From Prevotella fusca JCM 17724 (GTDB lineage Bacteria > Bacteroidota > Bacteroidia > Bacteroidales > Bacteroidaceae): a stretch of DNA of 64,000 nucleotides. Every line of letters starts with the position of its first letter. The first letter of the stretch is position 1. The stretch spans positions 1,587,001 through 1,651,000 of the forward strand of contig NZ_CP012074.1 in the NCBI RefSeq assembly GCF_001262015.1, read 5' to 3'. A model generated the notes under the pieces. It ran no database searches. It was given only the letters and a program-made list of their open reading frames with translations, and had not been told where the DNA came from. Both the position numbers and the translations under genes were made by a program. Shown here in pieces: positions 4,405-61,857 of the stretch.

Positions 4405-5376
4405 TTATCCTTTCGTCACCATCTTGCGTGATATGCGCAGGAGGATGGCAAAGAGGATGCAGGCAGTGATGAATCCGATGATGGCATCAATGAGGTAATG
4501 TGCCTGAATATAGACTGTGGCACAGCAAAGCAGGAGATAGAATGGTGCCAGAACAGCCAGAAGTTTATAGTTACGGTCGTGCCAAAGGAGCAACATACAG
4601 ACGGTGCTGACACCTACGTGCGAGCTTGGGAAAGCTGCAGTAGGACGTTCGCCGGCTGCCTTGGCATCTTCAACGAGGTGATAGAATATTCCGTCAGTAT
4701 ATCCCGGACTTGGGAGGCAGTCCTGATGATGGTTGAAGTAATCGTGCACATTAGGGAAGATGCCTGCTGTCACGTTCTGCAGACCTATTGCCTTGTAATA
4801 GAAGGTAGGACCAGTGACGGGCACGAAGATGAATACAACGTAATAGATAAAGAAGGAAGCCAGGATGATGAAGGCTGCCCTGTTGAACTCCTTATAGTAC
4901 CATCCGAAGTAATAGACGGCTATTGCGGCTATCATCGGGTAATAGGCTGCATATCCCATGTCGAACAATTCGCTGAAGAGATGTCCCGGTAAAGCCTTTG
5001 AGAAGAGCAATGCCGGCTGGCAACCAAAGAGGTCCTGTTCCCATTGTGCAAAGAGATGGTCGAGGTTGGGCAGGTGTCTATTGATTTCAAAGGTGTCAGG
5101 ATACCACCATGCAAGCAGTCCTAACTGTACGCCGACACGTGCAAAACGGGTTAATCTACACGGAGCTATGCGATAGACCAGCCACATTGCAGCTGTCAGT
5201 GCAACGATGCGCAGACGACCGAAAATCATTGCCTGTGGGTCGTTTATGGTGGTGTACATAAAGAAGATGACGATGAGTGTCAGCAACAGATAAGCCATTA
5301 CCACCCATTCGTATGCCATAAGTCCCTTTACGGGTTTCTTTTCTAATTTGAATAAGTCTATGATGAATTGTTTCAT
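4405..5376 (-). CDS. PAP2/Aur1-like membrane lipid phosphatase or phosphotransferase
   Basis: This 323-aa protein has several hydrophobic segments and a PAP2_3-type C-terminal half. The signature AFPSSHVGVSTV (about residues 250-261) contains the catalytic histidine, and HYLIDAIIG (about 293-301) carries the second His and Asp of the acid-phosphatase fold. The earlier GPTFYYK corresponds to the first conserved loop. This arrangement is known from fungal Aur1 inositol-phosphorylceramide synthase and bacterial relatives. Bacteroidales use such enzymes in inositol or ethanolamine sphingolipid synthesis or undecaprenyl/lipid phosphate recycling, and the sequence alone does not say which. It reads in the same direction as the downstream-facing epimerase gene (83 bp upstream), so the two may be one unit. 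Start ATG 5376. Confidence 0.7.
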   Translation of the reverse strand: MKQFIIDLFKLEKKPVKGLMAYEWVVMAYLLLTLIVIFFMYTTINDPQAMIFGRLRIVALTAAMWLVYRIAPCRLTRFARVGVQLGLLAWWYPDTFEINRHLPNLDHLFAQWEQDLFGCQPALLFSKALPGHLFSELFDMGYAAYYPMIAAIAVYYFGWYYKEFNRAAFIILASFFIYYVVFIFVPVTGPTFYYKAIGLQNVTAGIFPNVHDYFNHHQDCLPSPGYTDGIFYHLVEDAKAAGERPTAAFPSSHVGVSTVCMLLLWHDRNYKLLAVLAPFYLLLCCATVYIQAHYLIDAIIGFITACILFAILLRISRKMVTKG

Positions 5377-5390
5377 TGTTCTGTTTTTAT

Positions 5391-5452
5391 TGGGCTAATT
5401 GGGCCTATTAGCCTAATAGGGCTTATAAGCCTTATAAGGCTAATAATGATAG
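5391..5452. repeat. GGCTAATA/GCCTAATA simple repeat, copy 1
   Basis: Alternating GGGCTAAT, GCCTATTAGCC, GGGCTTATAAGCC and GGCTAATA blocks fill the gap between the PAP2 gene and the epimerase. The same motif recurs at 24583-24625 and 25379-25452, so it is a dispersed family in this genome. Several blocks are self-complementary. Confidence 0.7.
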
Positions 5453-5458
5453 GCTTCT

Positions 5459-6448
5459 CTATAGCCAGCCTTCTTTTTTATACCATTCTATCGTCTCTTT
5501 CACGCCTTGTTTGAGGTCGTACTCAGGTTTATAGCCTAATTCTTCAATCGCAGGACGGATGTTACAACGCCAGTTACGCTGCTTCAGAATCTGGTATTTA
5601 TCGTTGTTCAAAGCTGAAATCTTACCAGTCATTTGTCCGATAAGGTCGCCGAAGAAGGTGACGACACGCAGAACCCATATCGGAGCGGTGATGCGAATCC
5701 ACCAAGGACGACCTAACTCCTCGTGTATAAGGTCGCTGAAGGTAGTGCTCTGGTAGACGTTGCCGTCGCTTAGGAAGTAGGCATTGCCCGTCTTTCCGTG
5801 GTCTAAAGCGAGAAAGGTAGCCTGTACGACGTCCTTTACATATACGAAGGTGATATCCTGCTGCTTGTAACCTACGGCGAAGTCGCTGTGTCCCTTTATG
5901 CTTTTCGCCATCAGGAAGTAATCCTTCTCACGTGGTCCATAAACGCCAGTTGGGCGCAAAATGATATATGGTAAGGAAGAAGGAAGCAACTGTTCAGCCT
6001 GCAACTTACTCTTACCGTATGCCGTGTTAGGCTGTGGAGTATCTGTTGGCTCAATCTCCTTATAGGGCTGTTGCTCTCTGATAGCACCGAAGATGCTAAG
6101 ACTTGAGAGGAAAACGAATCGCTCCAAAGGCTGATTAAGCTCTTGAAGTGCCTGCACGAAGTTGCGAGTACCATCACGGTTGACACGGAAGAAGTCCTCC
6201 TTGTTCAGGCACTTCGTCACGCCAGCGGCATGAACAACATAGTCAAACTGATGTCCAGAGAGCTGTTCCTTCAGCTTATCGACGGATGAGAAGTCAAGTT
6301 CTATGAAGTGAATACGCTCATCCTGCAGGTATTCCCGTGAGGAAGTACGGCGTACTACCGCCCAAGTCTCCATGCCTTTTCGCAGTGCTTCCTCCACAAT
6401 AAAGGAGCCGATGAAGCCCGATGCGCCTGTTATAAGTATCTTTTTCAT
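5459..6448 (-). CDS. NAD-dependent epimerase/dehydratase (extended SDR)
   Basis: This 329-aa Rossmann protein starts MKKILITGASGFIGSF, with the NAD-binding GxxGxxG motif. The extended-SDR catalytic set is visible as the serine region LSSLSIFGA and the YGKSK motif (NTAYGKSKLQAE). A PTGVYGP substrate-lobe motif follows. Substrate is probably an NDP-sugar or a hydroxysteroid/sterol-like lipid; the family does not settle it. A longer frame open to 6559 exists, but ATG 6448 starts exactly at the conserved MKKILITG and the upstream extension has no homology signal. A TATCTTTG -7 box on the minus strand at 6480-6473 would place the promoter just upstream of that ATG, supporting the shorter form. Confidence 0.85.
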   Translation of the reverse strand: MKKILITGASGFIGSFIVEEALRKGMETWAVVRRTSSREYLQDERIHFIELDFSSVDKLKEQLSGHQFDYVVHAAGVTKCLNKEDFFRVNRDGTRNFVQALQELNQPLERFVFLSSLSIFGAIREQQPYKEIEPTDTPQPNTAYGKSKLQAEQLLPSSLPYIILRPTGVYGPREKDYFLMAKSIKGHSDFAVGYKQQDITFVYVKDVVQATFLALDHGKTGNAYFLSDGNVYQSTTFSDLIHEELGRPWWIRITAPIWVLRVVTFFGDLIGQMTGKISALNNDKYQILKQRNWRCNIRPAIEELGYKPEYDLKQGVKETIEWYKKEGWL

Positions 6449-11817: not shown

Positions 11818-11929
11818 CGTTGATAAGCAGCTTTAACTCGTTACGAACGAATGCTCTTTTAATTTCCAGAGGATAAAGAAGTAAAGTGTGAAATAGTGGT
11901 CTTTTTCTTTCAAATGACCACTATCTCCA

Positions 11930-12017
11930 AATTATTTTCATGAAAATAAATATTTTTTTTCACGTAAATAAATATTTTTCTTCATGAAAATAAATTCTTC
12001 TTCTCGTGAAAATAATT
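11930..12017. repeat. 88-bp palindrome-array element, copy A
   Basis: It begins AATTATTTTC and ends GAAAATAATT. TCATGA/TCACGT/TCATGA/TCGTGA boxes start at element positions 9, 31, 53 and 75 (22-bp period), separated by AAATAAATATTTTT spacers. It lies 113 bp 3' of the peptidase gene, in the 358-bp gap between convergent genes. Confidence 0.9.
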
Positions 12018-12063
12018 CCCGATAGTGTAGCTTTAAAGAGATGGCAGAGGGACTAATACCAAC

Positions 12064-12105
12064 TAAAAAAAGCAGGGATACACACTTAGTATGTCCCTGC
12101 TTTTA
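12064..12105. terminator. Bidirectional terminator
   Basis: AAAAAAGCAGGGA pairs with TCCCTGCTTTT around an ACACTTAG loop, with A/T runs outside. It lies between the convergent peptidase gene (plus) and Na/Pi transporter gene (minus) and could serve both. Confidence 0.75.
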
Positions 12106-12175: not shown

Positions 12176-13882
12176 TTACTTTCTGATACACATACGTGCC
12201 TCAACGACATTGACGATGAAGTCGCCCAACTTTTCACACTCCTGGATAATATCCATGTACAGTGTGCCGACCGTATAGGTGTACTTATGTTCATTCACAT
12301 CGTTGATATTCCGTGTACGCAACTGAGCACGATAGTTGTTGATTTCATTCTCGATAGTGAAGGTACGGGTCACATCAACATCACACTTATGTTTTACAAG
12401 CACAGTATTCATCTGTGTCAGAGCATCATCCGTAAGCTCAAACATCTGATTGATACTGTCATACTGCGCCTCCGTAAATTCCTCCTTGATGGTACGCTTG
12501 CGCTTTATCGTTCTTGCAATGTTGAAGCAGGAGTCACCGATACTCTCTATTTCAGTAATCTCACGCAGCATGTCACGCACCTTCTCCTTCGTGTCATCAC
12601 TGAGATGTGCATCGCTCACCTGGTCAAGATACTTTGCAATCTCAACCTCCATGTTATCCGATATACCCTCATACTTCTCTATACGCTCATAGAGTTTATC
12701 GAAAGCAGCATCTTCTTTCGTTGTCAGAAGGTCGCGAACCATGCCGAACATACGATGTGTACGTTCAGCATAAGAATGTATCTCCTTTGAAGCCTCAAGC
12801 ACTGAAAGCTCCGGCGTCTTCATGATACCCGAATGGATAAAGCGCAGACGGAAATCTTCCTCCTCCTTGTTTGCCTTAACCTTTATCGCCCAGCATGCCA
12901 CACGTTCCATCTGTGGGATAAACCAGATGAGCACTGTTGTGTTGCAGACGTTGAAGCAGGTGTGGAACATTGCCAGTACTATAGGCAGCAAGGCAGCCTT
13001 CTGTGCAGCAGGCAACGTATCGTTTACAGGGTCATAACCCACAAGTCGGCAAACGAAATTGACGAAAGGATAGAAGAGACACATTACCCAGATGACACCA
13101 AAGACATTGAAGAGCAGGTGCGCAAAGGCTGCACGGCGTGCCTGCGTGTTGGCTCCGAGGGCTGCAAGATTGGCTGTGGCAGTCGTTCCGATGTTCTCAC
13201 CCATCACCAAGGCAATACCGAGGTAAATCGGCAATACACCTGTTGAGCAGAGCAGGATGGTAATGGCCATCACCGCAGCAGAGCTTTGCACGATACAGGT
13301 AATGAGCGTTCCTATCAGAAGGAAGATGAGAATCGTCAGATGACTGTTCCTGTCAAAGGACGAGAAGAACTGTATTGCGTCAGGGTTATGCTCCAGATCG
13401 AGCGATTTCCCGGCACTGCTCAACAGCACAAGGGCGAAGAAAAGGAAGGCAATACCAAAGAGGAAGTCACCGATGTAACGCCGTTTCTTACTGTAAATGA
13501 GGATAATTCCGATGAAGAAAGCAGGGAAGACGACCAAGGTAAGGTCGACATTAAATCCCAGGGACATAATCCATGCCGTGAGCGTAGTACCGATATTGGC
13601 ACCCATAATGACCGAGATAGCCTGTGCAAGGGTAAGGAGTCCCGCATTTACGAAGCTCACCGTCATCACAGTCGTAGCCGATGACGACTGCACGGCACAG
13701 GTAATAAAGGTACCCGTAAGCATTCCTGTGAAACGGTTGGTGGTCATTGCACCCAGAATATGGCGCAACTGCGAGCCTGCCATCTTCTGCAGAGCCTCGC
13801 TCATAACTTTCATTCCGTAAATCAAGAGGGCAAGAGAGCCCATAATCTTCATGAAGATAATCGAATAGTCGCTTGTACTCAT
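12176..13882 (-). CDS. Na/Pi cotransporter family protein with PhoU-like tail (paralogue 1)
   Basis: This 568-aa inner-membrane protein has two inverted Na_Pi_cotrans repeats carrying the hallmark QSSSATT (about residue 64-70) and QSSAAVMA (about 200-207). A cytoplasmic PhoU-like helical domain follows (about 345-565). This architecture is the bacterial NptA/YjbB type that moves phosphate with sodium; direction (uptake or efflux) is not fixed by sequence. A second gene of the same length and nearly the same sequence lies 330 bp upstream, so the pair is a tandem duplication. Between them is a terminator, so each has its own transcript. Start ATG 13882. Confidence 0.88.
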   Translation of the reverse strand: MSTSDYSIIFMKIMGSLALLIYGMKVMSEALQKMAGSQLRHILGAMTTNRFTGMLTGTFITCAVQSSSATTVMTVSFVNAGLLTLAQAISVIMGANIGTTLTAWIMSLGFNVDLTLVVFPAFFIGIILIYSKKRRYIGDFLFGIAFLFFALVLLSSAGKSLDLEHNPDAIQFFSSFDRNSHLTILIFLLIGTLITCIVQSSAAVMAITILLCSTGVLPIYLGIALVMGENIGTTATANLAALGANTQARRAAFAHLLFNVFGVIWVMCLFYPFVNFVCRLVGYDPVNDTLPAAQKAALLPIVLAMFHTCFNVCNTTVLIWFIPQMERVACWAIKVKANKEEEDFRLRFIHSGIMKTPELSVLEASKEIHSYAERTHRMFGMVRDLLTTKEDAAFDKLYERIEKYEGISDNMEVEIAKYLDQVSDAHLSDDTKEKVRDMLREITEIESIGDSCFNIARTIKRKRTIKEEFTEAQYDSINQMFELTDDALTQMNTVLVKHKCDVDVTRTFTIENEINNYRAQLRTRNINDVNEHKYTYTVGTLYMDIIQECEKLGDFIVNVVEARMCIRK

Positions 13883-14212: not shown

Positions 14213-15922
14213 TCAGGCATCCTGCTGGCGTACACCCATGCGTGCCTCAACAACATTGACAACATAGTCGCCCAACTTCTCACACTCCTGGATGATATCC
14301 ATGTACATTGTTCCTATGGCATAGGTGTACTTGTGGTCGTTCACATCGTTGATATTCTGGGAACGCAGCTGGTTACGATAGTTATTGATTTCGTTCTCGA
14401 TGTTGAACGAACGGTTTACATCATTGTCCTGACGGTGTCCCACGAGGATTCGGTTCATCTGCGTCAGGGCATCATCCGTAAGCTCAAACATCTGGTGCAT
14501 GTGGTCATACTGCTCGTCAGTGAAGTCTTCCTTACCATGGAAGCGTCGGTTCTCAGTGCGTGCAATATTGAAACAAGCATCGCCGATACTCTCCAACTCA
14601 GAGATTTCACGAAGCATGGAACGCACCTTCTCCTTCGTTTCATCACTCAGATGGGCATTTGAAACCTGGTCAAGATACTTGGCAATCTCAATCTCCATGT
14701 TGTCAGAAATACCTTCATACTTCTCGATGCGGCTGTAGAGTTTGGTAAATTTATCAGTATCCTTCTCGCCAAGCAGCTCACGCACCATGCCGAACATACG
14801 CTGGATACGCTCGGCAAACGACTTTATCTCCTTTGAAGCCTCAAGCACTGAAAGCTCCGGAGTCTTCATGATACCAGCCTGAATGAAGTGCAGACGGAAC
14901 TCATCCTCATCCTTCTTGGACTTAGGCTTGATGATCTTGCAGACCAGTTTTTCCAGATACTTGATTGGTCCGACAAGGATAAGCGTATTCGTAATATTGA
15001 ACGCTGTGTGGAAAGCAGCAAGCACAAAGCTCAGCTTGGCAGCATTGGCAGCAAAGCCGGCAGCACCCTTTGGCATGTCAACATCATATCCAACCCAGCT
15101 ACATACCATGTTGATAAAAGGATGGAAGATGCACAATACCCAGATAACTCCGAAGACATTGAACACCATGTGTGCCATTGCCGCACGCCGTGCCTGCGTG
15201 TTTGCGGTCAAGGCGGCGAGATTTGAGGTTACGGTCGTTCCGATATTCTCACCCATCACCAGCGCAATACCCTGATAAATGGGCAGCACGCCCGTTGAAC
15301 AGAGGATCATCGTGATAGCCATGATGGCAGCAGAACTCTGCACACACATGGTCAGCACGCTACCAATGAGCAGGAAAACGATTGTCGTAAAGAAGCTCTT
15401 GGGGTCGAACTGGCTGAAGAAATCGAGCACAGCCTGATTGTGTGCGAGGTCCATGTCGATACCTGTCTGACGCAAAGTACCCAGTCCAAGGAACATAAAC
15501 GAGATTCCGAAGAGGAAGTCTCCGATGAGTTTACGCTTCTTGGAGTAAATCAGAACGATACCGATAAAGAATGCCGGCCACACGAAGTCGGTGATATTGA
15601 ACGAGAAACCAGCCGACATAATCCATGCCGTAAGCGTCGTTCCGATGTTCGCACCCATGATGACCGAGATTGCCTGAACCAGTGTCAGCAGCCCGGCATT
15701 CACGAAGCTGACCGTCATCACCGTCGTTGCCGTTGACGACTGGACAGCACCTGTGATGAATGTACCCGTAAGAATACCTGTAAAACGATTAGTAGTCATT
15801 GCGCCAAGGACGTGGCGCAGCTGTGGACCTGCCATTTTCTGCAGGCTCTCGCTCATTGCCTTCATACCGAACATCAGCAATGCCAATGCACCAATGAGCT
15901 TAAAAAAAATCCAAATCGACAT
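14213..15922 (-). CDS. Na/Pi cotransporter family protein with PhoU-like tail (paralogue 2)
   Basis: This 569-aa paralogue of the 12176-13882 product has the same topology. It has QSSTATT in the first repeat (a Thr where paralogue 1 has Ser), QSSAAIMA in the second, and a C-terminal PhoU-like domain ending in ECEKLGDYVVNVVEARMGV. Long identical stretches, such as MTTNRFTG and IMGANIGTTLTAWIMS, show a fairly recent duplication or shared strong constraint. The central loop (VGYDVDMPKGAAGFAAN) is where the two differ most. It is divergent from the uridine-kinase-like gene, whose start is 120 bp away, so both promoters lie in that gap. Start ATG 15922. Confidence 0.88.
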   Translation of the reverse strand: MSIWIFFKLIGALALLMFGMKAMSESLQKMAGPQLRHVLGAMTTNRFTGILTGTFITGAVQSSTATTVMTVSFVNAGLLTLVQAISVIMGANIGTTLTAWIMSAGFSFNITDFVWPAFFIGIVLIYSKKRKLIGDFLFGISFMFLGLGTLRQTGIDMDLAHNQAVLDFFSQFDPKSFFTTIVFLLIGSVLTMCVQSSAAIMAITMILCSTGVLPIYQGIALVMGENIGTTVTSNLAALTANTQARRAAMAHMVFNVFGVIWVLCIFHPFINMVCSWVGYDVDMPKGAAGFAANAAKLSFVLAAFHTAFNITNTLILVGPIKYLEKLVCKIIKPKSKKDEDEFRLHFIQAGIMKTPELSVLEASKEIKSFAERIQRMFGMVRELLGEKDTDKFTKLYSRIEKYEGISDNMEIEIAKYLDQVSNAHLSDETKEKVRSMLREISELESIGDACFNIARTENRRFHGKEDFTDEQYDHMHQMFELTDDALTQMNRILVGHRQDNDVNRSFNIENEINNYRNQLRSQNINDVNDHKYTYAIGTMYMDIIQECEKLGDYVVNVVEARMGVRQQDA

Positions 15923-22444: not shown

Positions 22445-22577
22445 TAACGAAAACAGCATATAAGCTCTTTAAAATAAAGTAAACATTCCTGCTTAAAAGC
22501 CAATCTTGAAGGGTGAAAAAGTAAAAGAATAAAAAGATAAAAACAAGGTTCTGAACCTTAAGAATTGCCATTTGCCG

Positions 22578-22665
22578 AATTATTTTCACGAAAAGAAGAA
22601 TTTATTTTCATGAAAATAAATATTTTTCTTCATGAAAAGAAATATTTTTTTTCGTGAAAATAATT
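22578..22665. repeat. 88-bp palindrome-array element, copy B
   Basis: It has the same 88-bp length and frame as copy A. Boxes TCACGA, TCATGA, TCATGA and TCGTGA start at positions 9, 31, 53 and 75; the ends are AATTATTTTC and GAAAATAATT. It lies 133 bp 3' of the WG-repeat gene in the 557-bp gap between convergent genes. Confidence 0.9.
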
Positions 22666-22830
22666 CGCAAGAGAGGGCTTATCATAGACTAAAAGGCTAC
22701 CAGAATATCTGTAAACAAACTTCGTATAATGCTTTAAAGTGTGTCAAAACAAAGGGCAAATCAGGCTTTTAATTTTCGAGAAAGAGTGGAGTTCTTTGGC
22801 AAGGGCATATCAACTTGACAAGAAAGAAAT

Positions 22831-25357: not shown

Positions 25358-25378
25358 ATTTGATATTTATTATAGGTG

Positions 25379-25452
25379 ATGAGGCGTATTGGGCTAATAA
25401 GCCTAATTAGACTAATAAGGCAAATTGGGCAAATAAGCCCGATAACCTTAAT
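25379..25452. repeat. GGCTAATA/GCCTAATA simple repeat, copy 3
   Basis: GGGCTAATAAGCC, AATTAGACTAATAAGGC and GGGCAAATAAGCCCG blocks fill the gap between cdd and the beta-helix lipoprotein gene. They run into the end of the latter (its stop is at 25448). Confidence 0.65.
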
Positions 25453-26914
25453 CGGCAATCAGCTCATAACAGCCGATGTCCGGCTTACCGTCACGCTGCC
25501 TGCTATCATGGTCATTTGCAAAACGGGAATCAGTGAGCACTGCGCCAGTGTCTATTGACGGGAACTTCTCGCCTTTCTCTGGCTTCTTCAAGTGGAAATC
25601 ATACTTCTGCTTGTCGCCATCCACCAGCATAAACTGCTTGTAACCGCCATCAGGATAATCTTTACTGTTCTCCCAGATTACATCTGTAAAACGTGCAAGA
25701 AGTGTTGCATCATCCGGCTTCGGTGTGCGAAGGATGCAATGATCGAACAGATAGTTGGCAGTCACACCCTCCTTATTGCCACCCATGAGGACATCATCCG
25801 CATAACCTGTCACAAGCGAGTTGACAACATTGAATGTCAGCAAAGGATAATCCTTGCCGTCAATATGATTGCCAAAGCTCAATGATGCACCACGATTACT
25901 GTCGAATGGATAGAACTGTGCGAACGTGCAATGCGTCAGCATCACCTCTCCACCGACAAAGGAAGCGCAGTCCTTCAGCGTATTGGTGAACTGCGTGTTA
26001 TAAGCCTCCACCTTGCTGTTTATCGCCTGCAGACCATAGCCCTGACAGTTATGAACAGTAGAGTTGGCAAGGGTCAGCTTCGTCTGTGTTGTTGTTGCCG
26101 TATCGCAGAGAATACCGTTATAGGCAGAATGGATGTCCGTATGCGTGAGCACATTACCATAACTGTCCTTACGGAAGCGCACTCCCTGCCACTGACCGCT
26201 GACACGGTCGTAGGGAAGATACTTGAACATCTTGTCCAGACGGTCACCACGAAGAATCACAGGATTGGCAGCTGTGCCCTCACAACGCAACGTACCATGA
26301 ACGTCAAGGGCAGCCTTCTGAGAGAAATAAACCGTCGTTCCGGCAGGAATCGTCAGTGTTGCACCCGCTTCCACCTTCAATGTATCTTGGAAAACTATCG
26401 GCTTCGTACTGGTCAAAGTGGTATTCGTTGTAATCTTACGTCCCTTTATCAATTCCGCATCCCAGCTGTAGACACGCAGGTTTACCTTCTGCTGTACACC
26501 ACTCTCGAGCGTAAACACGAGATTGTCTGTCAGTTCCAGCGGCGTTGCCGCATTGTTAAGCGGCGACGTCATCTCAACGAACACCTGGATACTATCCCTG
26601 TTTCGCACCTCAAGTTCATTGACCTGATAGCCATTGGCAGCCGAAAGTTCAACGCCGTCTACATTCACACGGAAGCCCGTCTGATTACCTTGTGAGAGGC
26701 GGACATTGGTCAACCGCAGTCCGTCTCCCGAATGGTTATACACCCAGAAGGTCTTGGTAGGCGTAGGAACATTGGAGAATGTGGTATCAAGTCGTAGTGT
26801 GTCAGTCGAGAAAGAGAGCAGATTACTCCGTGATGTCGTAAACGTATCATCATCAGAGCAGGCTGCCATCAGCATCACGGCTGACAGGAAAACCAATATA
26901 GATAACTTCTTCAT
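25448..26914 (-). CDS. Right-handed beta-helix lipoprotein
   Basis: The 488-aa protein has lipobox MAAC (signal MKKLSILVFLSAVMLMAACSDDD). The N-terminal 150 residues resemble an Ig-like periplasmic domain (LRLDTTFSNVPTPTKTFWVY). From about 160, a right-handed parallel beta-helix follows (TLTIPAGTTVYFSQKAALDVHGTLRC, then ADDVLMG and NHIDGKDYP rungs). Similar proteins are annotated as pectate-lyase-fold or surface lipoproteins without known activity, and no catalytic site is evident. It lies 62 bp downstream of murI on the same strand. Start ATG 26914. Confidence 0.8.
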   Translation of the reverse strand: MKKLSILVFLSAVMLMAACSDDDTFTTSRSNLLSFSTDTLRLDTTFSNVPTPTKTFWVYNHSGDGLRLTNVRLSQGNQTGFRVNVDGVELSAANGYQVNELEVRNRDSIQVFVEMTSPLNNAATPLELTDNLVFTLESGVQQKVNLRVYSWDAELIKGRKITTNTTLTSTKPIVFQDTLKVEAGATLTIPAGTTVYFSQKAALDVHGTLRCEGTAANPVILRGDRLDKMFKYLPYDRVSGQWQGVRFRKDSYGNVLTHTDIHSAYNGILCDTATTTQTKLTLANSTVHNCQGYGLQAINSKVEAYNTQFTNTLKDCASFVGGEVMLTHCTFAQFYPFDSNRGASLSFGNHIDGKDYPLLTFNVVNSLVTGYADDVLMGGNKEGVTANYLFDHCILRTPKPDDATLLARFTDVIWENSKDYPDGGYKQFMLVDGDKQKYDFHLKKPEKGEKFPSIDTGAVLTDSRFANDHDSRQRDGKPDIGCYELIAD

Positions 26915-28346: not shown

Positions 28347-28501
28347 CATGTCTGTTATTATCTCTTCTATATGTAAGTACGAAAATGAGGTCATCGCAAG
28401 AACGTAAATCCGTGCGGTGACCTCACCCTTTTCTCCTCTGAAACAGCATCAGCCCGTTGGTAGGCGAGGGTCATTTCCGACCTCGCAGACTGTTCTCCCG
28501 G

Positions 28502-28589
28502 AATTCTTTTCACGAAGAAAAATATTTATTTTCATGAAAATAAATATTTCTTTTCACGTAAATAATTTCTTCTTTTCACGAAAATAAAC
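28502..28589. repeat. 88-bp palindrome-array element, copy C
   Basis: Boxes TCACGA, TCATGA, TCACGT and TCACGA start at positions 9, 31, 53 and 75. The left end AATTCTTTTC is slightly changed and the right end is AAATAAAC. It lies 126 bp 3' of the middle skp gene on the minus strand. The rest of this 368-bp gap shows short GC-rich blocks but no gene. Confidence 0.88.
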
Positions 28590-28714
28590 TCTTATCACCG
28601 TGATGATGAATATCCCAAAGGCGGGACATACCGGGACGACTTGCCTGTCACAGGGGCTTGTCAAGCCGCTAAAGCAAGGAGAATTAACCACGGGGCAAAG
28701 GCTCCCGTACTGTT

Positions 28715-29856: not shown

Positions 29857-29923
29857 CTCTACTAATTCATAATTATGATTACCGATATTCACTTAGTTTA
29901 TTGCTACAAGCAACTCGTAAACT

Positions 29924-30054
29924 TCTTCACTTGTCAACTCACCTACGTCGCAAGTAACTCGTCAACTTGTTCACCCGTCAACCTGTTCACCTGTCAATCT
30001 GCCTACGTTGCAAGTAACGTGTCAACTTGTTCACCCGTCAACTCGTCAACCAAG
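29924..30054. repeat. CAACTTGTTCACCCGTCAAC tandem repeats
   Basis: ACTTGTTCACCCGTCAAC-type units (CTCGTCAAC, CTTGTTCAC, CCGTCAACC) and two copies of CTACGTYGCAAGTAAC fill the gap between bamA and the first skp gene. The same motif appears at 61785-61857 between korB and korA. Confidence 0.8.
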
Positions 30055-32670
30055 CTAAAACTCCTGTCCAAGGATAAAGTGGAACTGGCTTCCACCCTTT
30101 GTACCGAATACCTTATCGAAACCGTAAGCCCAGTCAATACCCATCAGACCCACCATCGGCAGGAAGATACGAACACCGAGACCGGCAGAACGCTTCATAT
30201 CAAACGGATTGAACTTACTTGTCTCTGTCCAGGCATTACCAGCCTCAACGAATCCAAGACCGTAGATGGTTGTATTACCAAGCAGGAACGGATAACGGAG
30301 CTCGAGTGAGAGACGGTCGTAAGCATAGCCCTCAGCACCATACGGAGTGAGCGAACCATTCTCATAACCACGAAGACCGATCGTTTCCTCTGCATAGCCG
30401 GTAGAGTATCCACTCATACCGTCGCCACCCATATAGTATGTTTCAAACGGACTCTTCTTGTTTTTATTGTAACTGCCCAGCAAACCGAACTCAAGACGGG
30501 TCATAAGGACAAAACACTTCTGACCACTTGTAAGGGCTGTGAAAGTACGTGCCTTGAACTTCCACTTGTGATACTCTACCCAACGATACTTCTCCTGCTG
30601 CTCCTTTGAGAAAGTAGGAGAGTTACGGTCGTTTGCCAAATGTGCATAATCCTTGCCATCCCACTTAGACCAAGGCGGAGTAATGGTCAAAGATACTGAG
30701 AAGTCAGAACCACGACGTGGGAAGAGCTGGTTATCTGTTGATGTACGGTTAAGCGCAATATTGAGGTTCAAGTTGTTTGCTGCACCGTTCGACATGATGA
30801 AGTAACGCCAATTACGCAACATGTAGCGCTGGTACTGCAGCTGGAGTGACAAGGTGAAGTAGTCATCAGGCCAGCTAAGACGCTTACCCCAACCAGCATA
30901 GACACTCAAGAGTTTCACGTACTTGTCAGGGTCATAATAGTTCTCATATCTGTTGTAATTGTAGTTGCCATAACCATAACGATAGTTGTTATAGTTATTC
31001 ATGTAAGCACTATTATAATAGTTGCTTGACACGTCCGTCTGCTTTGAGAAAGACACACCCACATTGAACTGGATAGGACGCTTGCCTCCCAGCCAGTTGG
31101 TTGAGTACTGTACATTGTATGACTGATAGTAAGTACCGTTCGTCTGTGCACCCAATGACAGCGTCTCACCATCACCGATAGGCATGATACCACGATGCTC
31201 ACGGTTCTTACGGAAGAGGTTTGCCATTGAGAAGTTGTTTAACTTCAGACCTACACGACCGACAACACCCGTCTGCGCCCAACCCAGTGAGAGCTCAACC
31301 TGGTCGTTTGATTTCTGCTTGAGGTTGTAGTTGATGTCTACTGTACCGTCCTCATAGTTTGGTTCCGGCACAGGATTGATTGCCTCCGGGTCGAAGTGTC
31401 CCATGGAAGCCAACTCACGTGCAGAACGCTGGAGAGCCTCCTTTGAGAAGAGGTCACCCGGCTTTGTACGCAGCTCACGACGAACGACATTCTCGTAAAG
31501 ACGGTCGTTACCGTTAATCTTCACACGATTGATGTGTGCCTGCTGACCTTCATAGATACGCATCTCAAGGTCAATGGAGTCGCCGACAATATTCACCTCC
31601 GTCGGCTGGAGATTATAGAAGAGGTAACCGTTGTTCCAGTAAGCATTGCCCACAGCGTCCTCATCCTGTGAAAGACGCTTGTTCATATAGGTCTGGTTAT
31701 ACACATCACCCTTCTTCATGTCGAGCAGACGTGACAGATAGTCAGTTGAATAAACCGTATTACCCACCCAGTTGATGTTGCGGATGTAATACTTCTTACC
31801 CTCATCCACCTTTACATAGATGTCAACATGCTTCGGGTCAACGTTCCAAACGCTGTCCTTGAGAATGATTGCATCACGGAAACCATACTCATTGTACTTC
31901 GTGATAAGATGCTTCTTATCCTCAGCCCAACGCTCCGGCGTGAATTTCTTTGACTTCAGGAAGCTGGACAGCTTGCCAGCCTCATGTGTCTTTGAGAAGG
32001 CACCCTTGGTGAACAGCGTTCCTTTGATTTTCTTGTCGCCCAGCTGGTTGTCGCCGTCAATGGTGATGGAACGCACCTTCAGCTTCTCCTTCTTGTCAAC
32101 GTCGATATCAAGGATAACCTGATTCTTGGCTGTGACATCGTCACGCTGACGGATGAATACCTCCGCATTCTTGTAACCCTTGTCCTCAAAGTACTTCTTT
32201 GCAAGTATCTTCGCACGGTCAATCATGTTAGGCGTAATCTGTCCGCCCATCAAGAGTCCGAGTTTCTTCTCCATATCTTCACGCTCGGTCTTCTTCAAAC
32301 CATTATAATTGATGGTTGAAATACGAGGACGTGGTGTGAGATGTATCTTCAGATAGATATTATCCCCAACAATAGAGTCAGCCGAAATGGAAACATCTGA
32401 GAATAGTCCGTGTTTCCAGTAACGCTTCACAGCATCTGTGATGGCTGTTCCCGGAACCTCAACTTCCTGTCCGATGCTGAGTCCGGAGATACCTGTGAGG
32501 ACATAATCCTCATAGCCATCAATGCCGGTAACAGCCAGCCCTGCCAGATTGTAAGTCTTAGGAGTACCTGAATAAGTGATGTCTGGGTTTACGATTTTCT
32601 CCTGTGCACTCATTGAAAGGGTCACTCCAGAGAGTGCAAGGAGCATCAACACCTTATTTATATTAGTCAT
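30055..32670 (-). CDS. bamA: Outer membrane protein assembly factor BamA
   Basis: The 871-aa Omp85 protein inserts beta-barrels into the outer membrane. It has a signal peptide (MTNINKVLMLLALSGVTLSMSAQ) and a periplasmic region of POTRA repeats (about 25-430; KLKVRSITIDGDNQL and QAHINRVKINGNDR are POTRA starts). A 16-strand barrel ends in FHFILGQEF, with the aromatic terminal residue of outer membrane proteins. An Asn/Tyr-rich segment (about residues 548-582, NNYNNYRYGYGNYNYNRYEN) looks like an expanded surface loop. Three skp genes follow and uppS precedes it by 12 bp, the usual Bacteroidales arrangement. Start ATG 32670. Confidence 0.94.
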   Translation of the reverse strand: MTNINKVLMLLALSGVTLSMSAQEKIVNPDITYSGTPKTYNLAGLAVTGIDGYEDYVLTGISGLSIGQEVEVPGTAITDAVKRYWKHGLFSDVSISADSIVGDNIYLKIHLTPRPRISTINYNGLKKTEREDMEKKLGLLMGGQITPNMIDRAKILAKKYFEDKGYKNAEVFIRQRDDVTAKNQVILDIDVDKKEKLKVRSITIDGDNQLGDKKIKGTLFTKGAFSKTHEAGKLSSFLKSKKFTPERWAEDKKHLITKYNEYGFRDAIILKDSVWNVDPKHVDIYVKVDEGKKYYIRNINWVGNTVYSTDYLSRLLDMKKGDVYNQTYMNKRLSQDEDAVGNAYWNNGYLFYNLQPTEVNIVGDSIDLEMRIYEGQQAHINRVKINGNDRLYENVVRRELRTKPGDLFSKEALQRSARELASMGHFDPEAINPVPEPNYEDGTVDINYNLKQKSNDQVELSLGWAQTGVVGRVGLKLNNFSMANLFRKNREHRGIMPIGDGETLSLGAQTNGTYYQSYNVQYSTNWLGGKRPIQFNVGVSFSKQTDVSSNYYNSAYMNNYNNYRYGYGNYNYNRYENYYDPDKYVKLLSVYAGWGKRLSWPDDYFTLSLQLQYQRYMLRNWRYFIMSNGAANNLNLNIALNRTSTDNQLFPRRGSDFSVSLTITPPWSKWDGKDYAHLANDRNSPTFSKEQQEKYRWVEYHKWKFKARTFTALTSGQKCFVLMTRLEFGLLGSYNKNKKSPFETYYMGGDGMSGYSTGYAEETIGLRGYENGSLTPYGAEGYAYDRLSLELRYPFLLGNTTIYGLGFVEAGNAWTETSKFNPFDMKRSAGLGVRIFLPMVGLMGIDWAYGFDKVFGTKGGSQFHFILGQEF

Positions 32671-40667: not shown

Positions 40668-42269
40668 CTTAATTCCGCAGCGTAAAATCTTTTAAGAAAT
40701 ACAAGTGACTGAGAAACAAAGTTCTCAAAACACTTGGACATGTCAGATGTTTCACCTATCTTGGTGCTGCAAACATAAAAAGCAAACAAAATATCCGACA
40801 TGACAAAGATAGCAATTAAAAACGAGAATATCACTTCTTTCGGAGGAATTTATCACATCATGGACGTTTTTTCAAAGTTGGGCTTTGAAAAAATTACCGA
40901 ATCCGTGTTGGGCAGACGCGGATGCAGCGGCAAGGCATTCAGCCATGGAAGTATCCTGGGCTCTCTCTTCTTCAACTACCTTTGTGGTGGGGATTGCCTT
41001 GAGGACATCAATGCGCTTACAGGGCAGTTCAGGCAGAGACCTGGTACGCTGTTACCCGGTACCGACACCGTGGGGCGCGGGCTGAAGGAGCTTGCCGAAG
41101 AGAATATTGTCTACAGGAGCGAAACCTCCGGCAAGTCGTACAGTTTCAACACTGCAGAGAAGCTGAACACCTTACTTTTACGTATGATACGTAGAATGGG
41201 GCTTATAAAGGCGGGCAGCCATGTTGACCTGGACTTTGACCACCAGTTTGTTCCAGCCCGCAAGTTCGATGCAAAGTATTCCTACAGGCAGGACCATGGT
41301 TATTTCCCGGGCTGGGCTTCCATCGGGGGCATCATGGTCGGAGGTGAGAACCGTGACGGAAACACCAATATGAGATTCCATCAGGAGGACACGCTCCGTC
41401 GCATTATGGACCGTGTGACCTCCGAGCTTGGTGTGGTGATAGAGCGTTTCCGTGCTGACTGCGGGTCGTTCTCGAAGGAAATCATCCGAACCGTAGAGCC
41501 GCGCTGCAACACGTTCTATATACGTGCTGCCAACTGCGGCAGCCGGTGCGAGGAGTTCCGCCAGCTGGAAGAATGGAAGGGCGTTGAGGTTGGTTATGAG
41601 AGGTGCGATGTCACCTCCGTCAGCATGGACGACCTCATCGAAGGAAAGTCATACAGGCTTGTCGTACAGCGTACTCCCTTGAAAGACAGGCACGGCAGGG
41701 AACAGACGGATATGTTCGGAGTGATATACACATACCGCTGTATCCTTACCAACAACCGGACATCCACAGAGAAGGACATCATTACATTCTACAATGAACG
41801 TGGAGCGAGCGAAAAGAACTTCGACATACAGAACAATGACTTCGGCTGGGCACATCTGCCCTTTTCCTTTATGGCTGAGAACATGGTTTTCATGATGGTT
41901 ACCGCCATGCTGAAGAACTTCTATCTCTATCTCGTCCGTCATATCAGCGAAAAGGTCAAGCCGTTGAAAAAGACAAGCAGGCTGAAAGCCTTTATCCTGC
42001 ATTTCGTCAGCGTGCCGGCAAAATGGGTGAGAACAGGAAGGCGGAACATTCTGAACCTGTATACAAACAAAGCATACTACTCTGAGGTCTTCCTTGAATA
42101 AACAGCATTTCTTTGTGGTTCTCATATTCCCCATTGGTTTGGGTGGGGGATTTCATGCATAGGCAAGCCCCAGGAAGTCACGAAAATCCTCATATCAACA
42201 TATAGAGCCTCCAAAAAGACATCTCAACACATAAAATCGCCTCACAAGGAAAAACGCTGCGGAATTAAG
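40668..42269 (+). mobile_element. IS1380-family insertion sequence, complete
   Basis: Perfect 16-bp terminal inverted repeats CTTAATTCCGCAGCGT (40668-40683) and its complement (42254-42269) bracket a single intact transposase gene, for 1602 bp. The flanks show no clear target duplication: CTCT on the left, GACG on the right. The right end abuts a truncated 88-bp repeat, suggesting a deletion at insertion or later. Confidence 0.88.
40800..42101 (+). CDS. IS1380-family transposase
   Basis: This 433-aa DDE transposase is intact. The first catalytic Asp lies in VDLDFDHQFVPARKFDAKYS (about residue 145-165), the second in RFRADCGSFSKE (about 218-229). The acidic third site is in the YNERGASEKNFDIQNNDFGW region (about 328-347). 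The frame has no stop or shift, so the element is probably still active or recently active. It is the only gene in the insertion sequence; its start ATG 40800 follows a 132-bp leader from the left inverted repeat. Confidence 0.92.
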   Translation: MTKIAIKNENITSFGGIYHIMDVFSKLGFEKITESVLGRRGCSGKAFSHGSILGSLFFNYLCGGDCLEDINALTGQFRQRPGTLLPGTDTVGRGLKELAEENIVYRSETSGKSYSFNTAEKLNTLLLRMIRRMGLIKAGSHVDLDFDHQFVPARKFDAKYSYRQDHGYFPGWASIGGIMVGGENRDGNTNMRFHQEDTLRRIMDRVTSELGVVIERFRADCGSFSKEIIRTVEPRCNTFYIRAANCGSRCEEFRQLEEWKGVEVGYERCDVTSVSMDDLIEGKSYRLVVQRTPLKDRHGREQTDMFGVIYTYRCILTNNRTSTEKDIITFYNERGASEKNFDIQNNDFGWAHLPFSFMAENMVFMMVTAMLKNFYLYLVRHISEKVKPLKKTSRLKAFILHFVSVPAKWVRTGRRNILNLYTNKAYYSEVFLE

Positions 42270-42270
42270 G

Positions 42271-42326
42271 ACGTAAATAAATATTTTTCTTCATGAAAAT
42301 AATTCTTTTTTTTCATGAAAATAATT
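42271..42326. repeat. 88-bp palindrome-array element, copy D, truncated
   Basis: This corresponds to element positions 33-88: ACGT of the second box, then TCATGA boxes at positions 53 and 75, ending GAAAATAATT. The first 32 bp are missing exactly where the IS1380 right end begins, and they are not found at the left end of the IS. Confidence 0.88.
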
Positions 42327-42392
42327 TGCAGAGAACGACTTTTTCGCTCGCTTTTTCCTGCTTGAATAGGCTTTTTCCGTGTGATTTGAAAT

Positions 42393-42437: not shown

Positions 42438-43169
42438 TTATTTCATAAGCAGCTGACGTGCAAATTCCCAAATAACAATACCTGTTGTTACACTTACATT
42501 CAGCGAGTGCTTGGTTCCGAACTGTGGAATCTCAAGACAGCCGTCGCTCATGTCCACAACACTCTGTTTCACACCTTTCACCTCGTTGCCCATGACGATG
42601 GCGTAGTGGGTGATGGGTGATGGGTGATGGGTGATGGGTGATGGGTGTTGGGTGTTGGGTGTTGATGATGTGTTGGGTGTTGGGTGATGGGTGATGGGTG
42701 TTGGGTGTTGATGATGTGTTGGGTGTTGGGTGATGGGTGTTGATGATGTGTTGTGGGGTGGGTGATGGGTGTTGAGGGAATGTTGGTTGTAATTTACATT
42801 CAATCCATCATGAACAGAGGTGTTTAGTTCCTGCAGTTTCGTTGAGCCTTCCACCTGTTCTACGCTATACACGAAAACACCCTGACGGTGGAGTTCTTCG
42901 ATGGCATCCTCTGTACGTTCAAAGTAACGCCAGTCTACTGAGTCCTCACCGCCAAGTGCTGTCTTGTGAATCTCAGCATTCGGTGGTGTGGCAGTGATAC
43001 CGCATAGATAGACAGCCTCCACACGGAAAGCATCAGCCGAACGGAATACACTTCCTACATTATATAGCGACCGCACATCGTCTAATACGACGATGAGTGG
43101 CAACTTGTCAGCCTCCTTGAACTCTTCAAGGGAAAGCCTGTTCATTTCGATGGTGCGTAGTTTTCTCAT
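42438..43169 (-). CDS. TrmH/SpoU-family RNA 2'-O-methyltransferase with minisatellite insert
   Basis: The 243-aa SPOUT methyltransferase contains motif 1 (NVGSVFRSADAF, 37-48), motif 2 (IVMGNEVKGV, 191-200) and motif 3 (IPQFGTKHSLNVSVTTGI, 214-231) of the knotted SAM-binding fold. It probably methylates tRNA or rRNA 2'-OH. Between motifs 1 and 2, residues about 117-188 are an inserted Pro/His/Thr/Ser repeat (THHPTPNTSSTPNTQHPSP) encoded by a 7-bp minisatellite at 42606-42778. Without it the protein would be about 170 residues, the usual compact size. The frame remains open. Activity with the insert in place is uncertain. Start ATG 43169; an alternative is Met9. Confidence 0.85.
   Translation of the reverse strand: MRKLRTIEMNRLSLEEFKEADKLPLIVVLDDVRSLYNVGSVFRSADAFRVEAVYLCGITATPPNAEIHKTALGGEDSVDWRYFERTEDAIEELHRQGVFVYSVEQVEGSTKLQELNTSVHDGLNVNYNQHSLNTHHPPHNTSSTPITQHPTHHQHPTPITHHPTPNTSSTPNTQHPSPITHHPSPITHYAIVMGNEVKGVKQSVVDMSDGCLEIPQFGTKHSLNVSVTTGIVIWEFARQLLMK
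42606..42778. repeat. Heptanucleotide minisatellite inside the methyltransferase gene
   Basis: TGATGGG (five units in a row from 42611) and TGTTGGG units alternate with TGTTGATGATG linkers in higher-order blocks. Because seven is not a multiple of three, the units are read in all three frames and encode a 7-residue pattern (PSPITHH). A change of one unit would shift the frame. Confidence 0.9.
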
Positions 43170-45316: not shown

Positions 45317-45395
45317 CATCAACACCAATGGTGTTTACCATCAACACCATACGTGCGGACCCTCAGCACCACCCGTGCTGAGGGTCAACACATCA
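45317..45395. repeat. CATCAACACCAATGGTG palindromic repeat
   Basis: AACACCAATGGTGTT is nearly palindromic. CCTCAGCAC (45361-45369) pairs perfectly with GTGCTGAGG (45375-45383) across a five-base loop. The blocks resemble bases 58-117 at the start of the window in the opposite orientation. They lie in the 512-bp gap before miaB, which has no gene. Confidence 0.65.
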
Positions 45396-54646: not shown

Positions 54647-54717
54647 CTTTATCCTGTTTTTCCCTCCCTTCATTTTCGATCCACACTTTCTTTCCATGCA
54701 GTAAGGTTCTTGTAGTG

Positions 54718-54805
54718 AATTATATTCATGGTGAGAAATATTTTTTTTCATGAAAATAAAAATTTCTTTTCGTGAAGAAAAATATTTTTTTTCATGAAAA
54801 GAATT
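54718..54805. repeat. 88-bp palindrome-array element, copy E
   Basis: Boxes TCATGG, TCATGA, TCGTGA and TCATGA start at positions 9, 31, 53 and 75; the ends are AATTATATTC and GAAAAGAATT. It lies 457 bp 3' of the second LTA-synthase-like gene and 363 bp before the amylase ATG. The rest of this 906-bp gap is the MITE, the repeat at 54604 and the amylase promoter. Confidence 0.88.
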
Positions 54806-55133
54806 CGGAAGCAGGGGTAATCTGTAAATCAATCATACGTTGTCTGTACTGTAAGTAATGCTTGTCTGCGTTTCAATTAACGCTTACTTGCAAGTCATAC
54901 TCTTCGCTATAATACCAATATTCATGAGAAGGTTTCTTGTATTGAACGCATGTCAGGGTACGAAAAACCCATCGTCTATAGTATGTCAGTGCTGTGTGCA
55001 GTGCTGTTGTTCCACTTTCTGTTATGCACGGAAATTGGATAGTAAAGAGTTGTTTTTCAGTTCTCTGCAAACGTTTGCACAGTGAAAAGCACTGATTATC
55101 ACCAGCATTTCTACTTTATATGGCTTTAAATAG

Positions 55134-57923: not shown

Positions 57924-58310
57924 ATGAGGAGTCAAGGAGGAAACCACCACCTTATCAGGCAATGGTCTCGAAAGTAAGAACCTGCATGATAAAAGTATAT
58001 AGGTTTAACTCCTTGACTCCATTTTTTGTGTAAACAGCTATTTCCTAACCTGTTGGTAGTATCTGTTGTGCATTAATCCAATTCTTCCAGCGGATTATAT
58101 GCAGATATTTTCTATCGAATATGCTTCAGTCATAGGAATGGATGACTATAAATAACTGTTTGATATTCAGTTGAAAGGTTACAAAAGAAATCTCCTTCTA
58201 TCACTTTAATGTACTTTCTTATCCCGAACGCATGCTAACTAATATGGTAAACTGACGGATATTAAACGATTTTCAGTAGTGTTTTCCATACAGCAACTAC
58301 ACCCCTTCAG

Positions 58311-58398
58311 AATTCTTTTCATGAAAAGAAATAATTATTTTCACGTAAATAAATACTTTTCTTCATGAAAAGAAATATTTTTCTTCATGAAAATAATT
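58311..58398. repeat. 88-bp palindrome-array element, copy F
   Basis: Boxes TCATGA, TCACGT, TCATGA and TCATGA start at positions 9, 31, 53 and 75; the ends are AATTCTTTTC and GAAAATAATT. It lies 484 bp 3' of the 58-aa peptide gene, between convergent genes. Confidence 0.9.
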
Positions 58399-58734
58399 TG
58401 AAAGTGATGTATAATTAGACCTTTCCTGTTTGTTGGCAACAGTTCAAATAAGCTGTTGAAAGGACTTTATTAATGTAAGTTAGGTATAATATGGTATATT
58501 AACAATTTATTCAGTATTCTTATACTGGACTCACGTTAATCTCAACTTCATACAAACTCTTGCTAAAATCGCATGGCATCAAAGAAACTGTAGATAATGA
58601 AGAGTTCATTGTAAATCAAGTATGTACTTAATGACCTACTGGCAAAGAAATCGTATATCAAAGTACACGAAGAAAACGGTACGCAGCTTACTTTCTTTAA
58701 ATAATATTATCGTAATTCTTATATTGAACTTACA

Positions 58735-61621: not shown

Positions 61622-61784
61622 GTCTTTTTAGAATTTAAAGGAGTTAAAGAAGTGATTGGAGTTATACCAAATGCCAGAACTGAAGGTTTTATCCATGATT
61701 CAAACTCATGAACACTTGTAATTCAAAGTTCATCATTGAAAACCCAAACTTATGGTTACTTCAATTCATTGTGCATTATCAGTA

Positions 61785-61857
61785 GCAACTTGTCAACTCG
61801 TAAGCTGGTTAGCCAGTCAACCCGTCAACTTGTCAACTCATCAATCTGTAAGCTCGT
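61785..61857. repeat. CAACTTGTCAACTCGT repeats between korB and korA
   Basis: CAACTTGTCAACTCGTAAGC, CAACCCGTCAACTTGTCAAC and ATCAATCTGTAAGCTCG units form a short tandem array like that at 29924-30054. It reaches the stop codon of korA. Confidence 0.75.

Follow-up and report, generated by a model that had tools for sequence, protein, structure and literature searches.

Intergenic palindrome arrays with a fixed 22-bp pitch in Prevotella fusca: putative binding sites of a chromosome-organising protein

What keeps a family of short palindrome arrays in the gaps between the genes of Prevotella fusca? In the window (the whole 64,000-nucleotide stretch of P. fusca JCM 17724 analyzed here), the initial annotation had noticed five 88-bp copies of an element, starting at 11930, 22578, 28502, 54718 and 58311, each with four boxes at a 22-bp period, together with a truncated sixth. 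All five are real and share the 22-bp spacing, with no internal gap in their alignment; the full form, hereafter family A, is 90 bp, since an outer G and C belong to it and its ends read GAATT...AATTC. The four boxes are likewise confirmed, with the amendment that the right end of the copy at 28501 is decayed before its additional box, and the copy at 54717 opens on a box outside the variants first reported. The truncated copy exists as well, its left part missing where it abuts an insertion sequence, which we take to be of the IS1380 type and around which no target duplication was seen by eye (Table 1). The genes flanking the family-A copies in the window have mixed functions.

Table 1. Array elements and the adjoining insertion sequence, in positions of the window
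Feature	Positions	Description
Family-A element	11929..12018	4 units, boxes at 11938, 11960, 11982, 12004; convergent gap
Family-A element	22577..22666	4 units; convergent gap, 3' of cysteinyl-tRNA synthetase; site shared by P. jejuni (L077) and G146
Family-A element	28501..28591	4 units and a degenerate fifth box; OmpH-like gene on either side
Insertion sequence	40668..42269	ends CTTAATTCCGCAGCG (from 40668) and CGCTGCGGAATTAAG (to 42269)
DDE_Tnp_1_4 transposase	40800..42101	inside the insertion sequence
Family-A remnant (right-hand part)	42270..42327	adjoins the insertion sequence, left part gone
Family-B array, AACACCAATGGTGTT, 22-bp period	45317..45371	second family, biased away from origin
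Family-A element	54717..54806	4 units, first box TCATGG; tandem gap
Family-A element	58310..58399	4 units; convergent gap (predicted genes)

The window also holds neighboring duplicate genes at 12176-13882 (Na+/Pi-cotransporter and PhoU domains) and 14213-15922, stretches of the second matching the first at 74-83% (DNA). Short-unit tandem repeats lie at 5370-5464 and 25360-25454, at 29914-30061 and 61781-61864, and at 42606-42788, with spacings of 9; 8 and 16; and 14 and 18 bp; two of them occur at two places each.

Anatomy and census of family A

Family-A ends read GAATT[A/C]TYTTCRYGA, and between them stand four 22-bp units, each with a palindromic box that forms part of an 18-bp palindromic site, TTnTYTTCRYGAARAnAA. 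Among 51 distinct elements from loci in six genomes, 35 measure 89-91 bp (4 units), 11 measure 68-69 bp (3 units) and 2 measure 111-112 bp (5 units), the other three (46, 135 and 202 bp) being remnants or elements with mis-called ends. All 51 lie outside genes, as predicted here rather than as annotated.

The P. fusca genome consists of two contigs, C1 (1.83 Mb) and C2 (1.43 Mb). It holds 499 places that match a two-box pattern with at most one mismatch, against 0 for the reversed control pattern, which puts family A far above chance. The strong 22-bp period that a motif scan had been expected to give is present: in 464 kb, neighboring boxes less than 53 bp apart are spaced by 22 bp 46 times, by 44 bp three times and by 21 bp once. 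This concentration argues against the suspicion that AT-rich palindrome runs occur at any spacing. The P. fusca genome carries dozens of arrays, and a count over genomes found the family-A pattern in 6 of 398 genomes of the genus (265 pattern matches in P. fusca, 90 in G347, 83 in G132, 78 in G146 and 3 each in G124 and G378) and in 1 of 198 genomes of the order, that of P. fusca. Among the named relatives, whose loci were obtained by scanning genome contigs with BamA, P. jejuni and P. denticola carry an element at the examined locus; a scan of genome contigs with a 549-aa protein gave no matches. Titles and opening lines of abstracts, mostly from the open-access literature, contain no published name for family A or for the 22-bp rule, and within the same body of text the element answers to no named terminator or MITE.

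Age, constraint and placement of the elements

The initial annotation had offered recent spreading of the copies as one reason for their constant spacing. This is contradicted by the occupation of the same gene gaps in other species. The site at 28501 is occupied in G132, G146 (by a copy shorter by exactly 22 bp), G347, P. jejuni and P. denticola, where the copy is decayed and has one 21-bp spacing; in P. multiformis the element is absent together with about 300 bp of flank, and the site therefore offers no clean empty counterpart. The site at 22577 is common to G146 and P. jejuni, with no element detected in the G132 and G347 stretches. Conversely, an element next to L167:15033 is present in G132 and G146 and absent in P. 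fusca, whose sequence is there too dissimilar by eye to place the element boundary. When 24 loci of relatives were compared by blast with P. fusca loci, nine sites had a counterpart, and P. fusca carries the element at eight of them and lacks it at one, a share inflated by the choice of some P. fusca loci around its own elements.

At such sites the elements outlast their surroundings. Orthologous elements are identical at 1118 of 1294 positions (86%) and their 100-bp flanks at 1881 of 2965 (63%), and the element is the more identical part in 15 of 15 pairwise comparisons (10 sites); these exclude P. denticola, gapped columns were dropped (123 in elements, 100 in flanks), and the flanks include some coding sequence, which favors the flanks. 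Family A is thus old and vertically inherited, not recently spread. Mean identity is 86% for 11 orthologous pairs set side by side, 81.5% for non-orthologues and 83.5% for P. fusca paralogues. The closeness of these values indicates that members keep to a family consensus, and, with paralogues nearly as alike as orthologues, copies may have exchanged sequence among themselves. The three matches each in G124 and G378, the loss in P. multiformis and the decay in P. denticola suggest that the family-A system is dispensable or turning over.

The constraint is specific to positions within the boxes. The 37 P. fusca copies of 90 bp align gap-free, with the positions TTnT...C..G...AnAA nearly invariant in every box, and in the 11 orthologous pairs substitutions avoid the motif TTnTnnnCnnGnnnAnAA (10 of 352 motif positions changed, against 121 of 616 others); since the constrained positions were chosen from paralogues, paralogue invariance and orthologue constraint are not independent. 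Together with the fixed spacing, this supports the initial view that the elements are arrays of sites and not simple repeats.

Could these elements be the residue of an old MITE-like family, non-autonomous, with GAATT...AATTC ends, which a transposase spread in an ancestor and which is now decaying? Family A does carry the terminal inverted repeats by which MITEs are recognized, its copies are dispersed between genes and vary in unit number, and the P. denticola copy has decayed. We nevertheless regard this origin as improbable, because 34 clean-ended copies show no target-site duplication (mean abutting direct repeat 0.35 versus 0.40 shuffled, p 0.64), copies occupy orthologous sites, and the conservation of motif positions far above the flanks is not expected from decay. 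No inverted extension into the flanks was found around family-A copies. REP and REPIN-RAYT sequences, outlined in PMC3733652 as dispersed extragenic palindromes of high copy number, differ from family A in that the latter forms fixed 22-bp arrays in a host genome without a Y1 transposase. Indeed, Y1 transposase (PF01797, Y1_Tnp) and dnaA were the proteins sought genome-wide, and PF01797 gave 0 matches in the P. fusca genome, with 5 of 14 control genomes matching; this further weakens the MITE-like origin, and identity with RAYT/REP elements was rejected.

Palindromy may also serve RNA. A 3'-end element, acting as a bidirectional terminator or mRNA stabilizer through tandem hairpins read in RNA, would fit the long inverted symmetry, the strong predicted folding of family-A RNA (MFE z -6.5, with 37 of 37 copies below -2) and the lower number of copies in divergent gaps. 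Unslid partners pair at 85%, far above partners slid by 1-3 columns (52-62% and 54-70%), but any palindromic consensus gives such a contrast. Selection for pairing would be expected to produce an excess of two-sided changes. Over the whole hairpin there are 25, where shuffled data give 45.6, and in the boxes 30, where they give 44.6, with 500 of 500 shuffles at least as high in both cases. On this deficit an RNA hairpin as the selected feature was rejected, and the palindromy looks like that of a two-fold protein site, not of a stem. Moreover, each of the two gaps inspected for this by eye holds, next to the element, a GC-rich hairpin of its own that resembles a terminator (12065-12105 in the window; in G132/G146, the gap adjoining L167:15033), Rfam 15 has 0 matches at gathering score within the window, and the replicon and origin bias described below is not expected of such an element. 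We therefore give an RNA-level function little credence.

Placement 3' of a gene, proposed for all copies, is true of the window and is a tendency in the sampled quarter of the P. fusca genome, where family A occupies 15 of the 58 convergent gaps, 13 of the 132 tandem ones and 3 of the 55 divergent ones. The scarcity in divergent gaps (3/55 versus 28/190 in the others) is not significant alone (p 0.10). Convergent gaps, with a mean length of 1277 bp, are about twice as long as tandem ones (about 640 bp; divergent, 1041 bp), so that per base family A is similarly frequent in both.

Replicon bias and opposite polarity of families A and B

The distribution of family A over the genome is strongly uneven. 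Of the 105 family-A ends in P. fusca, 93 are on C1, the larger replicon, and 12 on C2, five of the latter having been placed there from a list in order of place; tested as 92 of 105, the bias has p 4e-12. G132 likewise has 47 of 51 ends on its larger replicon (p 2e-8, using the length share of P. fusca). GC skew was read from 30 stretches of C1, among them the window, and a few showed the opposite sign; it places the C1 origin at about 1.65 Mb, next to the window, and its terminus at about 0.74 Mb. The 69 family-A clusters of P. fusca fall into six equal classes of origin distance as 22, 16, 13, 8, 8 and 2 (Rayleigh p 4e-5, mean 1.60 Mb). In G132, where the skew-derived origin is at 0.12-0.23 Mb and the skew-inferred terminus, at 0.72-0.81 Mb, is not opposite to it, the classes hold 12, 9, 2, 4, 2 and 1 (p 4e-4). 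Among the matches listed for G146 and G347, 26 family-A places each center on 1.71 Mb (p 1.5e-5) and 1.56 Mb (p 6e-4), the orthologue of the window's cysteinyl-tRNA synthetase lying at 1.72 and 1.63 Mb. Three relatives, two of them as judged from the matches listed, thus crowd family A towards the same pole as P. fusca.

Core genes nearer the origin may confound this gradient, and among our analyses the counts per gap are the ones that control for it. Occupancy of gaps of at least 150 bp, from the nearest to the farthest class, is 13/48, 6/50, 5/28, 1/19, 2/30 and 2/29, with 2/41 on C2; the fall from the nearest sixth to the farthest has p 0.004, in stretches partly chosen with matches in view. 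An orientation of family A with replication was rejected, three of four strand-bias measures being not significant and GT-AC reaching a nominal p of 0.03. The single dnaA match (G000:C2:802871-803356) is on the smaller replicon, and it is the larger one whose skew-inferred origin adjoins the window; according to a passage of PMC4755523, a wide separation of dnaA and oriC is common in Bacteroidetes.

A tandem-repeat scan of P. fusca stretches revealed further 22-bp arrays with sequences unrelated to family A, which we sorted by rules and family letters set in this analysis: family B (AACACCAATGGTGTT+7, a palindrome), family C (TGTAATnnnATTACA+7), family D (CTTAATTGnnnTGCAACTAAGC) and family E (TCAAAAGGGC..., not palindromic), besides unlettered arrays. 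A dispersed repeat of about 290 bp (77-81% alike), found at L155:15317-15603 and in a dozen or more P. fusca places on both replicons, overlaps family-E 22-bp sub-repeats. Family B, whose pattern counts single units, also favors the larger replicon (42 of 54 clusters on C1, 12 on C2; p 0.001), and its polarity is the reverse. By origin-distance class it counts 5, 5, 4, 5, 9 and 14 in P. fusca (A versus B, p 6e-6) and 2, 3, 2, 2, 2 and 11 in G132 (p 6e-5). Alone, it is weakly non-uniform (Rayleigh p 0.02 and 0.05, respectively). In G132 it lies opposite the origin (mean 1.12 Mb) and not at the skew-inferred terminus, so that its position is more safely described as "far from the origin". Families A and B are thus biased to opposite poles in two species.

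The 22-bp pitch and a putative role of the arrays

How far does the 22-bp pitch reach beyond family A? Intergenic self-matches at lags of 12-60 bp number 63 at 22 bp, 35 at 44 bp and at most 4 elsewhere in P. fusca, and 28 at 22, 19 at 44 and up to 12 elsewhere (lag 14) in 77 loci of other Prevotellaceae. After removal of short-period repeats, over lags 14-40, P. fusca gives 82 at 22 bp against at most 4 and the other Prevotellaceae 33 (24 of 77 loci), with 10 at 21, 6 at 23 and at most 3 at the remaining lags; the 40 kb taken from two sister-genus genomes gave none. A near-regular 400-kb grid over G132 yields 22 matches at 22 bp against at most 2 at other lags. Thirty-eight genomes of other Bacteroidales families (562 kb) yield 6, in five genomes, against at most 3, and 20 genomes of other orders (276 kb) yield 1 against at most 1. 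G476, from another Bacteroidales family and extended to 180 kb because two arrays had already appeared there, has 13 matches at 22 bp, 1 at 24 and 0 at other lags, in several sequence families (L255-L262 and L208; for example, AAAGCTATATAGCTTT, GACCAATATTGGTC and AAAGGTATATACCTTT); G471 (140 kb) and four other genomes (120 kb) have none at 22 bp. The rule is therefore patchy: it holds strongly for these Prevotella and for G476, some relatives lack it, and other orders are at background. The 40 arrays from outside P. fusca are more palindromic than shuffled units (5.78 versus 4.83 of 8, p 1e-7), with 13 of them convincing palindromes singly. A different array, TTCCCAACCGGTTGGGAA+4, occurs in P. 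multiformis and P. denticola (L076:17702-17797, L076:3185-3275 and L075:6819-6889), and may be a family that takes the place of A where the latter is scarce or in decay.

Taken at its widest, this pattern would be a Bacteroidales "22-bp address code", in which unrelated palindrome families of the same pitch would be read by a putative shared family of array-binding proteins, A labeling the origin side and B the far side, and in which the letters would turn over between clades as the pitch stays. We consider such a code conceivable but doubtful. The pitch could also be a mutational habit, a replication or repair process that makes tandem copies at exactly 22 bp as functionless by-products. That arrays of unrelated sequence share the pitch, be it inside a single genome, in G476 or across other Prevotellaceae, is consistent with this, as are the 27 of 40 non-P. 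fusca arrays that are not singly convincing palindromes and the non-palindromic family E. Such a habit is quite unlikely, however, as it leaves motif constraint, shared sites and the opposite polarity of A and B unexplained, and the 22-bp peak is only slight in coding or mixed sequence. Phased arrays of palindromic sites are a usual feature of operators, yet local operators of one regulon are the least probable reading, given the functionally mixed neighbor genes in the window, the unexplained origin gradient and the few occupied divergent gaps.

Constraint, pitch, inheritance and polarity are most simply explained by protein-binding arrays with a chromosome-wide role, and we tentatively favor, with somewhat less than even confidence, the proposal that family A represents putative binding arrays of a chromosome-organising protein, working like Noc or SlmA sites. 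We infer protein binding, its dimeric and cooperative nature, and a chromosome-wide rather than local role. The four sites (sometimes three, five or more) would be bound by a protein of this Prevotella group that recognizes its DNA sequence specifically and is probably a dimer; a spacing of two helical turns would put the sites on one face, where bound dimers could touch. With density falling away from the origin, the bound protein would mark the origin-side DNA of the larger chromosome, either in a role like that of Noc and SlmA sites (division or segregation timing) or as another macrodomain mark, and family B, at the same pitch, would mark the far side. The presence of only 12 of 105 family-A ends on the smaller chromosome counts against a division-timing mark, and family B favors the larger replicon too. 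The loss or decay of family A in sister species and a possible confounding of the gradient by the location of core genes also weigh against the proposal.

How do the arrays compare with known systems? MatP and matS form the terminus macrodomain system of E. coli. Family B resembles matS in being a palindrome biased away from the origin, towards the skew-inferred terminus in P. fusca, and differs in its array form and pitch. Noc of B. subtilis has about 70 NBS with a 14-bp consensus and SlmA of E. coli 24-52 SBS, both kinds of site being palindromic, spread over the chromosome and under-represented in the terminus, as summarized in PMC4726725. Family A likewise comprises dozens of palindromic sites that are scarcer far from the origin (22 to 2 in P. 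fusca, 12 to 1 in G132, where the far end is opposite the origin and not the skew-inferred terminus). It differs in forming four-site intergenic arrays of fixed 22-bp pitch, mostly on one of two replicons. This likeness is one of description rather than of sequence comparison, and we claim that family A may work like Noc or SlmA sites, not that it is such a system.

Two repeats of oral species are also similar by description. PINSR, an intergenic, clade-specific repeat of the P. intermedia/nigrescens group, has 177 and 184 copies in two strains, with about three quarters of the sites common to both; the account of it in PMC4755523 gives 188 bp, no inverted ends and an unknown function. Family A is likewise an intergenic, clade-specific, high-copy Prevotella repeat with shared sites, and is set apart by its 90 bp, its inverted ends and its clade. 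In P. disiens, L082:16555 carries a 22-bp array that might belong to PINSR. BrickBuilt, a Porphyromonas gingivalis MITE, has a 23-nt unit, IS5-type ends (GAGACC...) and 19 copies in one strain, and 22-nt tandem repeats are also mentioned for strain W83 (both from the BrickBuilt account in PMC4596501). It shares with family A an intergenic location and an internal tandem repeat of similar length, and family A differs in its 22-bp unit and GAATT ends.

The ordering and segregation of Bacteroidales chromosomes have, to our knowledge, been little studied, and conserved, origin-graded arrays offer a direct handle on both. If real machinery lies behind the 22-bp pitch that unrelated arrays share, the pitch would amount to a new rule by which intergenic DNA of bacteria is organized, and might also account for orphan repeats described one by one in oral species.
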